Below, piece by piece: positions 419 to 7,064 of a DNA stretch of 64,000 nucleotides (its first letter is position 1; every line of letters begins with the position of its first letter). The notes below the pieces were generated by a model. It saw nothing but the letters and a program-made list of their open reading frames with translations, was not told the origin of the DNA and made no database searches. The stretch is from Closterium sp. NIES-65 (lineage: Eukaryota; Streptophyta; Zygnematophyceae; Desmidiales; Closteriaceae): contig CANXME010000501.1 of assembly GCA_948144175.1 (NCBI GenBank), forward strand, positions 1,364,001 through 1,428,000, read 5' to 3'. Position numbers and translations under genes: made by a program.

Positions 419-992
419 CTATCAGAAGGAGGGCATGAGGACGAGTTTGGAGGGGATTGTCTTGGTGCATCATCACAACCACCCACCCACACATCCTGCT
501 GCTGCAACCCCCCTTGAAAACCACTCCCGGATATTGGTGCCCACTCACTCCTGCCCTTGCCCTCCTTCCTTTCCCCCCTCCCAGCCCCTCCCTGCCCACC
601 AGTTACCAGAAGGAGGGCATGAGGACGAGCGTGGAGGGGATTGTCTTGGTGCATCACCACAACCACCCGCACACCCTGCTCTGTTGCAACCCCCCTTGTT
701 GTACCCTTTGCACCGCACTCCCGCCCTTGCCCTCCTTTCCTCGCCCACCAACCAGTTACCAGAAGGAGGGCATGAGGACGAGCGTGGAGGGGATTGTCTT
801 GGTGCATCACCACAACCACCCGCACACCCTGCTCTGTTGCAACCCCCCTTGTTGTACCCTTTGCACCGCACTCCCGCCCTTGCCCTCCTTCCCTCGCCCA
901 CCAACCAGTTACCAGAAGGAGGGCATGAGGACGAGTTTGGAGGGGATTGTCTTGGTGCATCACCACAACCACCCGCACACCCTGCTGCTGCT
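419..992 (+). repeat. Four acceptor-side partial copies of CFIm25 exon A
   Basis: Copies start after a CAG acceptor at 419, 603, 756 and 909. Each repeats the beginning of the exon whose intact version is 1113-1252, through the HHHNHPH segment, then breaks off near the Leu-rich end into intron-like C/T-rich DNA. None contains the downstream FFKLPGG part or a donor. The intact fifth copy is the 3'-most one. The copies at 603, 756 and 909 are nearly identical to each other, including adjacent pyrimidine tract, so the duplicated unit is polypyrimidine tract plus acceptor plus exon start. Confidence 0.85.
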
Positions 993-1112
993 ATCCCCCT
1001 TGTACCCCTTGCACTCACTTCACTTCTTTGCCCTCCCTCCCTCGCCCTCCCTCCCTCGCCCTCCCTCCCTCGCCCTCCCTCCCTCGCCCCTCCCCCCCCC
1101 CCCCTGCTCCAG

Positions 1113-4100: not shown

Positions 4101-7064
4101 GAGATGAAGAAGCTATTCGTGGTTCACCTCACAGAGCGCCAGTAAGAATCTCAAGCTGCCCTTTCAGCTAACTCCCCTCGACTCCCTTTCACTCCTTTCG
4201 ACTCCTCTTGACAACTCACTCCTCTCCACTCATCTTCACTCCTCCCCAACAGGAAATGAGAAGCTGTTTGTGGATCCCCTCACCGAAAGGCTGTACTTTG
4301 GAGTCCCCAAGAATCTCAAAGTTCCCTTCACTCCTTTTTCAACTCCTCGTCACACCTCATCATTCCCCTTCACTCCTCTTGACTCCTCGCCATTCCTCAT
4401 TTCCTCTTCATCCCTCTTCACTCCTCTCAATCCCTTGTCACTCCCATCCCCCACATCAGGAAATGAAGAAGCTCTTTGCGGTTCCCTTCACAAAGCGCCA
4501 GTACTTTGGAGTTCCCAAGAACCCCAAGCTGCCCTTTCAGCGGACCCCTCTTCACTCCCGTCCACTCCTCTCCACCACTCTTCACCATTCTTCACTCCCC
4601 TCTCTCCAGGAGATGAAGAAGCTCTTTGTGGTCCCCCTCACTGAGAGGCAGTACTTTGGAGTTCCGAAGAATCACTCCTCTCCACTCCTCTCCACTCCTT
4701 TTCACTCCCCCTCTCATCAACAGGAGATGAAAGAGCTGTTTGTGGTTCCTCTAACAGAGCGCCAGTACTTAGGAGTTCCCAAGAATCTCAAGCTGCCCTT
4801 TCTGCTAACTCCCCTCGACTCCACTTCACTCCTTTCGACTCCTCTTGACCACTCACTCACTCCTCTCCACTCATCTTCACTCCTCCCCAACAGGAGATGA
4901 AGAAGCTCTTTGTAGTTCCTCTAACAGAGCGCCAGTACTTTGGAGTTCCCAAGAATCTCAGGCCGCTCATTCAGCTGACTCCCCGTCACTCCCCTTCACT
5001 CCTTTCGAATCCTCTCCACTCCTCGCCACCGCTTTTCACCCCTCGTCACTCCTCCCTTCAACAGGAAATGAAGAAGCTGTTTGTGGTTCCTCTAACAGAG
5101 CGCCAGTACTTTGGAGTTCCCAAGAATCTCAAGCTGCTGGCGGTGCCACTACTGGAGCTGTATGACAATGTGCAGGTGAGGGGGATGGGTGGGGTGAGGA
5201 TGGGTGGGTGGGTCTGTGGGTGTAGTAGGTCAGTGTGATTGTGTGGCAGCAGTATAAGGCAGGCATGCTCGCTTCCCAAGAATCTCAAGCTGCTGGCGGT
5301 ACCGTTGTTGGAGCTGTATGACAATGTGCAGTTGAGGGTGATGGATGGATGGATGGGTGGGTGGGTGGGTGGGTGGGTGGGTGTAAGAGGTGTGTGTGGT
5401 TGTGTGACATTGTGGTAGCAGTATAAGGCAAGGGTACTTACATGTAGATTCGCTTCCCAAGAATCTGAAGCTGCTGGCGGTGCCACTACTGGAGCTGTAT
5501 GACAATGTACAGGTGAGGGGATGGGTGGGGTGTGGTGGGGCGTGTGGGTGGGGTGTGGGTGTGGGTGTGGGTGTGGGTGTGGGTGTGGGTGCAATATGTG
5601 TGACGGTGTGACATTGCGACAGCAACAGAACAGTGTGTTTGTTGTGCCACTCACGTGCAAAACATCCCAAGCTGCTGGCGGTGGTGCCGCTGCGGGAGCT
5701 CTATGACAACGTACAGGTGAGGGTGCTGTGTGTGGGTGGGTGGGTGGGTGGGTGGGTAGGTGTGCAGGTAAGATGGTATGGGGATAAACATGTGTATGAG
5801 GACATTAGCATCCCAAGCTGCTGGCAGTGGTGCCGCTGCGGGAGTTCTATGACAACGTACAGACAGGTGAGGGGGACGGATGGATGGGTGGGTGGGTGGG
5901 TGCAATTGCAAGAGCGTGTATTGAGAAGCAAGTGCGTGAGTAGGTGTGAAGGTGAGGGGTGTGCGTGGCTGGTGTTTTGAATCGACTCAAAACACGATTC
6001 ATTACACGCGTGTTGAGTCAACTCAAAACACGATTCATTACACGCGTGTTGAGTCAACTCAAAACACGATTCATTACACGCGTGTTGAGTCAACTCAAAA
6101 CACGATTCATTACACGCATGTTGAGTCAACTCAAAACACGATTCATTACACGCGTGTTGAGTCAACTCAAAACACGATTCATTACACGCATGTTGAGTCA
6201 ACTCAAAACACGAATTATTCAGAAGCAAGTGTGTGAGTAGGTGTGCAGGTGAGGGGTGTGCGTGGCAGGGTGACTGGGTGTGTGTGAGGGTGGGGATGTG
6301 GCTCAGGGAGGATGAGGGAGGATGCAAGAGGTGTGACTGTGTATCAGTGTGCCAGCACTATCCTGTCAGTGCTGCTAGTGAAGGGCGGAGCTGACTGTGT
6401 ATCAGTGTGCCAGCGCTATCATGCAGTCGCATTCACTTGTAGAGGGATTGAAGCTGCTGGCGTTGGTGCTGTGCTATCAGAGTTGAGGGTGGGGATGTGG
6501 CTCCTTGTGACTGCAAGAGGTGTGACAGTGTATCACTGTGCCAGCGCTCTTCCGATTCTCCTCTGCTTTCCCTTCCTCTCTTCCTTCTCCCTCAGCAATA
6601 TGGCCCAGTCATCTCTGCCGTCCGCCCTTCCTCACTCCCTCTGATATTCCAACTCTCACTCCCTCTTGTCATCATCTCTGATTCAATCCACCATCCGCCC
6701 TCCATCCCTTCATGTGCCCCTCTCTCCTCTCAGCGATATGGCCCAGTCATCTCTGCCATTCCATTCCAACTCTCACTCCCTCTTGCCATCCCCTCTGACT
6801 CAATCCACCATCCGTTCTCCATCCCTTCATTTGCCCCTCTTCCCTTTCAGCGCTACAGCCCAGTCATCTCTGCCATTCCTTCTGCACCTCTCACTCCCTC
6901 TTCCTTTCCCCGCAAATTCATTCCTTCGCACTCAATTCGCCGCCCCTATCCCCCTTCCTCTCTCTTCCTCTCTTTCTTCTCCCCCTCAGCGCTACGGTCC
7001 AGTCATCTCCGCTATTCCGTTGCAACTCTCGAGATTCACATTCAACCTCATCCACGACTCGTGA
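1113..7064 (+). CDS. NUDT21/CFIm25: CFIm25 (cleavage factor Im 25-kDa subunit), 5' end outside window
   Basis: This encodes the RNA-binding Nudix-fold subunit of cleavage factor I, which binds UGUA in pre-mRNA and sets poly(A) site choice in the nucleus. My model joins 1113-1252, 2089-2165, 2450-2536, 5065-5175 and 6990-7064 (TGA). Phases agree at every junction and each intron is GT-AG. Family landmarks in order are [101 protein letters not shown] and [16 protein letters not shown]. They match plant and animal CFIm25 almost without gaps. As known for the family, the Nudix box is degenerate, so no hydrolase activity is expected. The N-terminal exon(s) (about the first third) are not recognisable in 1-1112 and are probably to the left. 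Every intron is filled with partial exon copies, annotated separately. A YR retrotransposon begins 122 bp after the stop. Confidence 0.88.
1633..1965 (+). repeat. Two acceptor-side partial copies of CFIm25 exon B
   Basis: Partial copies begin after AG at 1633 and 1922 and encode EVEG(F/S)K(R/H)KLTSKL before diverging. The intact exon (2089-2165) follows. The intron between them also carries a duplicated block of about 80-100 bp (around 1682-1780 and 1822-1895) containing repeats of cccatacccgatcatcc. The spacer between these blocks holds a perfect palindrome at 1793-1812. Confidence 0.8.
2603..2794 (+). repeat. Two donor-side partial copies of CFIm25 exon C
   Basis: After the intact exon 2450-2536, its 3' half plus donor is repeated at about 2603-2656 and 2741-2794. 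Both start inside the exon at aactTCGxGACGCTC, both encode (N)[17 protein letters not shown], and both end in GT donors. They lack the [11 protein letters not shown] start and any acceptor. A fourth, more decayed copy sits at 3428-3482, after the minisatellite. Confidence 0.85.
2870..3440 (+). repeat. 18-copy, 32-bp minisatellite seeded by an exon C fragment
   Basis: Eighteen units with an exact 32-bp period (aacttggagaccctcaac recurs from 2884 to 3428). They are almost identical; one unit has aacag instead of aacgg. The unit contains gtaacttggagaccctca, which is the mid-exon C sequence, so the array grew out of a donor-side exon copy. There are no unique spacers between repeats, so it is not a CRISPR array. 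Confidence 0.93.
3642..4965 (+). repeat. Nine acceptor-side partial copies of CFIm25 exon D
   Basis: Copies begin at about 3642, 3802, 3955, 4101, 4253, 4460, 4610, 4724 and 4894. Most follow a C/T-rich tract ending in AACAG, ATCAG or TCCAG, and repeat the GAGATGAAGAAGCT start. Each runs through the [19 protein letters not shown] segment with substitutions or indels and breaks off at or before the LK(L/P)P position. None reaches [14 protein letters not shown] or a donor. The intact exon is the tenth (5065-5175). The inter-copy tracts (cactcctctccactc and relatives) are duplicated along with the acceptor. Confidence 0.9.
5281..5866 (+). repeat. Four donor-side partial copies of CFIm25 exon D
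   Basis: Downstream of the intact exon, its 3' end plus donor is repeated at about 5281-5331, 5462-5512, 5669-5716 and 5815-5866. They encode (NLK)[14 protein letters not shown] or the variant [15 protein letters not shown]. Three keep a GTGAGG donor; the first has TTGAGG and has lost it. They are separated by (GGGT)n or (GTGGGT)n microsatellites. None has an acceptor or the EMKKLF start. Confidence 0.87.
5972..6213 (+). repeat. 36-bp tandem repeat with palindromic core
   Basis: About 6.7 copies of a 36-bp unit containing gttgagtcaactcaaaacac followed by gattcattacacgc. The first unit carries ttttgaatcgactcaaaa, a near-palindrome related to the palindromes at 1793-1812 and about 271-289. The array lies in the last CFIm25 intron. 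Confidence 0.9.
6596..6880 (+). repeat. Three acceptor-side partial copies of the CFIm25 terminal exon
   Basis: Copies follow CTCAG, CTCAG and TTCAG at 6596, 6734 and 6851 and encode (Q/R)Y(G/S)PVISA before decaying. The intact terminal exon is the fourth (6990-7064). The repeated flank (tcactccctcttg...ctgattcaatccaccatccg) is duplicated too. All earlier copies lack the [13 protein letters not shown]-terminus and stop. Confidence 0.85.

Follow-up and report, generated by a model that had tools for sequence, protein, structure and literature searches.

Intron lengthening is usually attributed to transposons and random insertions. A stretch of 64,000 nucleotides from the alga Closterium sp. 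NIES-65 (hereafter the window; C501:1364001-1428000, C501 being its contig) carries a gene for CFIm25 (NUDT21-like; Pfam PF13869) whose introns contain series of truncated exon copies, here called half-exons. The closest described relative that was found is the RdRp gene of potato, in which, according to the part of the report consulted, a single tandem duplication across an intron-exon boundary created a new intron (PMC4974935). As in potato, the duplicated segment in Closterium crosses an intron-exon border and lies in direct tandem arrangement; unlike the potato case, with its one event, one gene and new intron, the Closterium arrays reach up to 10 units, occur at both intron ends and in several gene families, leave the exon set apparently unchanged and involve exchange between half-exon and working exon. 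The same text recounts the Rogers model, in which an intron is gained by duplication of an exon piece that contains AGGT (told in PMC4974935). Closterium shares with that model an internal tandem duplication beside splice signals, but its unit is an intron flank plus part of an exon instead of an exonic AGGT unit, and no new intron is evident. Repair-mediated proximal duplications of vertebrates are short and local and may include splice sites (4 partial exon/intron donors among 824); the sections of that report consulted excluded templates within 50 bp as tandem duplications and described one opposite-orientation case (PMC2671141). Such copies are non-adjacent and in either orientation (PMC2671141), whereas those of Closterium are direct and mostly adjacent. 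The 90-bp exon arrays of Tetrahymena are, in the portion of their description seen, arrays of whole exons (PMC6564038). A literature search by titles and abstract openings returned no paper on half-exon arrays, which is not proof of absence, and exon evolution by half-exon exchange was not found described in the literature searched. An earlier note on the window knew of no described gene of this kind; that remark calls for caution, as a single junction-crossing duplication is known in the potato gene (PMC4974935).

The half-exons described below lie in direct orientation, are truncated on one side, have breaks common within arrays, differ in unit number between two gene copies and in one case equal the intact exon start of the other copy. 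They are probably direct tandem duplicates that straddle splice junctions. Unequal crossing-over between diverged gene copies likely raised their number and shuffled them, and they are likely tolerated because splicing would still yield the same messenger RNA (mRNA). The genome searched was that of the host strain (874 Mb, 2400 contigs). Five exons of the window between positions 1113 and 7064 were identified by protein match as coding most of CFIm25, and the gene's first coding exon (exon 0, L009:8624-8742, with its ATG at L009:8624) precedes the window. A second copy of the gene was found on the reverse strand of contig C1682. Both copies encode the same protein, and they are ~97-99% identical in the main aligned pieces, 91-93% across shifted arrays and 97-100% in exons. 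The five working exons were used as blastn queries against the window, and the working exons, half-exons and one derived array were as follows (positions in the window, strand, description; percentages are identities to the working exon):

420..506, +, acceptor half-exon A1 (82.8% to exon A 2-84)
603..680, +, acceptor half-exon A2 (85.9%)
756..833, +, acceptor half-exon A3 (85.9%)
909..991, +, acceptor half-exon A4 (84.3%)
1113..1252, +, working exon A (frame, AG/GT borders, protein match)
1633..1693, +, acceptor half-exon B1 (counterpart on C1682 is a 77-bp tandem array)
1922..1966, +, acceptor half-exon B2 (88.9%)
2089..2165, +, working exon B (blastn, protein match)
2450..2536, +, working exon C (blastn, protein match)
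2603..2656, +, donor half-exon C1 (96.3% to exon C 34-87)
2741..2794, +, donor half-exon C2 (94.4%)
2870..3443, +, 32-bp tandem array of ~18 copies (apparently grown out of the beginning of a C half-exon; shorter on C1682)
3428..3479, +, donor half-exon C3 (86.5%)
3646..3697, +, acceptor half-exon D1, AG lost (blastn, alignment; 80.8%)
3806..3867, +, acceptor half-exon D2 (blastn)
3955..4027, +, acceptor half-exon D3 (best match of three units on C1682)
4101..4144, +, acceptor half-exon D4 (blastn)
4253..4319, +, acceptor half-exon D5 (blastn)
4460..4532, +, acceptor half-exon D6 (blastn)
4610..4673, +, acceptor half-exon D7 (blastn)
4724..4796, +, acceptor half-exon D8 (blastn)
4894..4967, +, acceptor half-exon D9 (flank and exon positions 1-66 identical to the start of working exon D on C1682)
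5065..5175, +, working exon D (start unlike that of working exon D on C1682)
5273..5331, +, donor half-exon D, 3' copy 1, GT lost (blastn, alignment)
5454..5512, +, donor half-exon D, 3' copy 2 (blastn)
5664..5716, +, donor half-exon D, 3' copy 3 (blastn)
5807..5862, +, donor half-exon D, 3' copy 4 (blastn)
6599..6618, +, acceptor half-exon E1, weak (blastn, E 0.47)
6734..6774, +, acceptor half-exon E2 (blastn)
6851..6892, +, acceptor half-exon E3 (blastn)
6990..7064, +, working terminal exon E, with stop (blastn)

All 25 half-exons were recovered at these positions, in exactly the numbers and with the polarity that the earlier note had given: on the acceptor side four of A, two of B, nine of D and three of E, and on the donor side three of C and four of D. 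Their E-values ranged from 1.6e-28 to 1.8e-6, except for the weak E1. Acceptor-side copies all lie upstream of their own exon and cover its start, and donor-side copies all lie downstream and cover its end; none of the half-exons found by this search of the window was a whole-exon copy, which confirmed the claim that no partial copy spans an exon. Alignments also bore out the view that the repeated unit straddles the splice junction. When they were read by eye, AG was retained in 17 of 18 acceptor copies (D1 being the exception) and GT in all three C copies and in three of the four D donor copies, being absent from the first of these and following a 4-nt insertion in the fourth. The half-exons differ by 4-21% from the working exons, and frameshifts occur in D2 and D5. 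Exon 0 has seven donor-side copies in one search, and six at the threshold used to count both gene copies. At that threshold, which missed E1, donor plus acceptor halves numbered 6+4 in intron 0-A, 0+2 in A-B, 0+0 in B-C, 3+9 in C-D and 4+2 in D-E on C501, and 6+3, 0+9, 0+0, 3+10 and 4+2 on C1682. Within each intron of both gene copies the donor halves always precede the acceptor halves, and inverted copies were found in 0 of 30 cases on C501 and 0 of 37 on C1682. Half-exons were thus present at seven of the ten CFIm25 junctions, intron B-C (284 bp) having none, and repeat families that include a working exon make up ~43% of the intron bases (3398 of roughly 7800). Copies of most arrays have a common outer break, B showing several, in the alignments read by eye; about seven founding duplications are therefore likelier than 25 independent ones, with one or a few apparently at the root of each array, which then expanded.

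Two gene families besides CFIm25 show this polarity too, which leaves the suggestion of a device specific to that gene unsupported. The sample comprised one strain and three gene families, two of them analyzed at the DNA level and the chaperonins by match table. For the proteasome family, 44 matches were found in the genome and 20 loci with 32 matches were used, the other 12 being on other contigs; partial copies of each exon piece were sought inside its own 10-kb locus. Exclusion of near-identical partner loci left 21 distinct exon pieces, which are not wholly independent, since two duplicated stretches carry related genes at L019, L025, L028 and L029. Upstream copies of the start were found for 13 pieces, downstream copies of the end for 12, either for 15 and both for 10, and none of the 21 had a copy covering >90% of the profile-matched piece, a piece that may fall short of the full exon. 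Among 59 copies, 31 were upstream copies of the start, 26 downstream copies of the end and two downstream copies of the start, and none was inverted. Polarity was hence obeyed by 57 of 59, by 47 of 49 when 10 matches of 23 nt in one 21-bp array of L026 are set aside, and, counted by exon side, by 25 of 27 (binomial P 2.8e-6). AG or GT was present in many, though not all, of the copied stretches inspected, and at L019 some copies lie ~3 kb away from the exon. Comparison of the exons with other proteasome loci gave 45 matches and is no chance control, since the genes are related. Among the 93 best chaperonin candidates, three distinct genes (on C1626, C43 and C1052) had two strongly overlapping profile matches side by side; the pattern was also seen in their partner contigs, and in the match table all three obey polarity. 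The match table of ubiquitin-conjugating enzymes contained no clear side-by-side half-matches, with one 23-position overlap at C1721.

One-sidedness follows from geometry: a direct tandem duplication with one end in an exon and the other in the adjoining intron always leaves its truncated copy on the intron side, so that polarity needs no targeting, and selection is needed only to account for the missing whole-exon copies. The first event at each junction would have been an ordinary tandem duplication of this kind, and selection would have removed duplications that include a whole exon or break one. Uniform tandem duplication of 50-220 bp was simulated in an exon-intron-exon gene, events being kept only if the working exons stayed intact. 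Introns grown from 100-250 bp to 1.8-2.5 kb acquired on average 6-17 exon fragments, and 10, 12 and 6 are observed in the three large introns of C501. A second simulation, with sequences, mutation and the same repeat detection as for the real gene, gave means of 4.1-4.4 junction families and 0.2-2.7 intron-only families; 7 and 4 were observed on C501, and 5 and 3 on the examined part of C1682. The share of repeat bases in junction families was 0.68-0.99 in simulated means, and 0.76 on C501 and 0.82 on C1682. In these models, indiscriminate duplication plus a filter on the mRNA would be enough for the make-up of the families, and junction targeting would be unnecessary.

These results bear on the possibility that mutation is aimed at junctions, for example by transcription-linked breaks, by RNA-templated repair, or by R-loops at donor flanks, which are G-rich, or acceptor flanks, which are pyrimidine-rich. 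The concentration of repeats in gene bodies and near exons, the seven of ten CFIm25 junctions affected and the low complexity of both intron ends, which favors misalignment, would all fit such a process. Uniform duplication with a filter gives a similar base share for junction families, and repair that is RNA-templated or dispersed should produce some copies that are inverted or on the wrong side, which among the proteasome copies amount to 0 of 59 and 2 of 59, respectively; we regard aimed mutation as a somewhat doubtful alternative. The earlier proposal of a mutational process behind the repeated junctions is supported. Its junction-targeting form is not needed, since geometry forces the polarity and the simulations give similar abundance and make-up if introns started short, and template switching into dispersed sites is disfavored by the lack of inversion among 59 proteasome and 67 CFIm25 copies.

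Comparison of the two gene copies showed that the arrays move. Units on C501 and C1682 number 4 and 3 for A, 2 and 9 for B (with seven 77-bp spacings) and 9 and 10 for the D acceptors, and the 32-bp and 36-bp tandem arrays also differ. Unit-by-unit matching indicated that the order is conserved, so that the signature of unequal crossing-over, a unit number that varies between homologous copies with the order kept, was found. According to the part of the genome report consulted, the alga was haploid when sampled, more than half of the gene groups common to all strains are duplicated in NIES-65, and a related strain, NIES-4550, shows recombination between genes that differ in origin (PMC10407611). 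Working exon D of C1682 is identical to half-exon D9 of C501 in 96 of 96 flank and 66 of 66 exon bases (162/162), and then has three mismatches to it in exon positions 67-75, where the match switches to the working exon of C501; beyond the switch, it shows no difference from the C501 exon up to the exon end and donor. In unit-by-unit matching D9 was the best match of its start (100% over 137). The start of working exon D on C501, by comparison, differs from that on C1682 by 20 flank mismatches, three gaps and three silent exon changes. Between D9 and the working exon D of C501, 20 of 95 flank bases have diverged and exon positions 1-66 have only silent changes. A flank divergence of 20/95 is hard to fit to an origin after the split of copies that are 97-99% identical, and both types of D start therefore very likely predate the separation of the gene copies. 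Whichever contig changed, according to these alignments what is a half-exon in one gene copy opens the working exon in the other. On the simplest readings, C1682 would have lost a unit by recombination between D9 and D, or C501 would have gained one by unequal exchange with a C1682-like copy. Unequal homologous exchange within the arrays would in this way alter both the number of units and which unit carries the working exon end. At the proteasome pair L026/L027, a donor copy was lost in the second locus without coding exchange.

Since tandem repeats are prone to misassembly, and the assembly of the strain combined PacBio with linked reads according to the section of the genome report seen (PMC10407611), an artefact of assembly was considered. 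The copies are 4-21% off the working exons, stand in the same order on two contigs and occur also at unrelated genes, which makes an artefact extremely unlikely.

In order to determine how half-exons have diverged, they were compared with the working exons by codon. For CFIm25, differences at codon positions 1, 2 and 3 were 27, 27 and 119 (25 copies), and for the proteasome genes 54, 54 and 178 in the 36 ungapped copies kept (after removal of 13 matches of <30 nt and 10 with gaps); no new in-frame stop was found in these 25 and 36 copies. The ratio of nonsynonymous to synonymous divergence (dN/dS) between half-exon and working exon was 0.098 for CFIm25, 0.161 for the proteasome genes and 0.133 pooled (array bootstrap 0.095-0.183), with L025 and L029 also left out of the count (31 copies, 20 arrays). 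The proteasome-like exon at L025:4898-5077 and L031:4845-5024 has the same in-frame TAA in both loci, which is absent from the donor-side copies; this gene may be a pseudogene, and was left out of the dN/dS count for that reason. A copy dead from birth is expected to give a dN/dS of 0.5, because the working lineage accumulates silent changes only and the copy accumulates changes of every kind. Single copies had 20 private changes that were silent and 32 that were not, which is near neutral (P 0.01 against 23% silent), and the working exons had 13 silent private changes and two of the other kind; the CFIm25 pieces for this count were hand-cut and their gapped parts trimmed. Since differences are mainly silent (0.13 against 0.5), half-exons would mostly once have been parts of working exons: they seem to decay nearly freely now, most of the divergence having arisen while they were in use. 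Unequal crossing-over between diverged gene copies or alleles would yield such silent-biased divergence, and repeated exchange of working ends is proposed as the reason why half-exons differ mostly silently despite their now near-neutral change. Half-exons would then be interchangeable exon ends rather than junk.

The same data were weighed against serial slippage on one chromosome, in which half-exons would be copied from the working exon of the same gene, dead from birth, and the arrays would be a fossil series. Identity does tend to rise toward the working exon, in D (from 80.8% in D1 to 93-95% in D8 and D9) and in C (86.5, 94.4 and 96.3%), and the private changes of the copies are near neutral, as slippage would have it. 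The observed dN/dS falls well short of the 0.5 that it predicts, and D9, with its diverged flank and only silent exon changes, is the working start on C1682, so that slippage is unlikely. Half-exons could alternatively still be translated as alternative exon ends, their codons being kept for that reason, which would agree with the absence of new stops and the low dN/dS. A database protein of the strain (P0002; 100% identity across 81% of the query) also includes an A half-exon. P0002 is the public gene model of the C1682 copy; it starts in intron sequence, reads through the half-exon and lacks exons 0 and E, and thus looks like a misprediction, an example of how half-exons mislead gene prediction. 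Given, in addition, that at the exon border donor halves lack an acceptor and acceptor halves lack a donor, and that D2 and D5 are frameshifted, present translation is quite improbable.

Known decoy exons have both splice sites. Half-exons might likewise be functional decoys that regulate intron removal, perhaps in autoregulation of CFIm25: AG is retained in nearly all acceptor copies, and the accounts consulted tie intronic decoy exons to intron retention in OGT and other genes, which the Closterium introns resemble in having spare splice sites inside them. Unlike decoy exons, each half-exon has one splice site, at the exon border. Half-exons occur also at proteasome and chaperonin genes, unit numbers differ between near-identical gene copies, and the differences are mainly codon-silent; copies that conserve codons, not nucleotides, make past translation likelier than an RNA motif, and a decoy role is very unlikely. 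The spliceosome would ignore half-exons, as exon definition needs an acceptor and a donor close together.

Several results weigh against our explanation by tandem duplication and unequal crossing-over. A single clear swap came to light, and a search of six paralogous proteasome locus pairs gave no second clean one. Two of the 59 proteasome copies (at L015 and L029) break polarity, and half-copies occur in 15 of the 21 exons and in none of the other six. Simulated introns that start at 500-1000 bp acquire a mean of 0.9-4.4 fragments, so that abundance fits only from 100-250 bp; simulated genes have fewer junction families (~4 vs 7), and these cover more intron (4.9-7.8 kb vs 3.4 kb observed). 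Local direct repeats are concentrated in gene bodies, with none in window 40001-60000, and they take up 0.37 of the bases up to 250 bp from a proteasome exon, compared with 0.10-0.12 at distances of 2-3.5 kb and 0.13-0.19 farther out. A uniform genome-wide process would fail to explain this concentration, though turnover of intergenic DNA could.

Beyond these loci we advance a tentative generalization, which may perhaps hold: genome-wide, splice junctions would keep reservoirs of interchangeable, protein-compatible exon ends, and unequal crossing-over would move half-exons in and out of service, so that exon ends and splice sites would be renewed, and intron length altered, in concert and with the protein unchanged. 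If the exchange reading is true, recombination replaces an exon end and its splice site wholesale at silent cost only, and splice-site evolution becomes directly observable between strains. Half-exons also offer a natural test of exon definition, since dozens of plausible single splice sites must be ignored.

Some further features were noted in the CFIm25 introns. The 36-bp array (window 5977-6213, 6.6 copies) lies in intron D-E and is spread over ~2 kb or more on C1682, where this intron measures 8.7 kb and a roughly 3-kb insertion follows exon D. A stretch of ~80 bp in intron B-C (window 2337-2417) is a short dispersed repeat with at least 34 other places in the genome (81-100% identity): among the 42 matches listed for window 2100-2560, 34 fall outside the two gene copies, all of them in query positions 238-327 (intron B-C). 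For the half-exons, an introner-like element inserted in many unrelated genes was considered and rejected, as the exon B and C pieces matched only the two CFIm25 copies among the best candidates scored.

Elsewhere in the window, a gene at 49100-51237 on the reverse strand, which we take to be HSP70-like, had no local direct repeat at the settings used, in contrast to CFIm25. Tyrosine recombinase-like open reading frames lie beside reverse transcriptase/RNase H at 15169-18410, presumably a DIRS-type element. Two pairs of inverted retroelement-like copies were also present, at 23213-26204/46075-49064 (~88%) and 33906-39588/58221-63998 (~85%).

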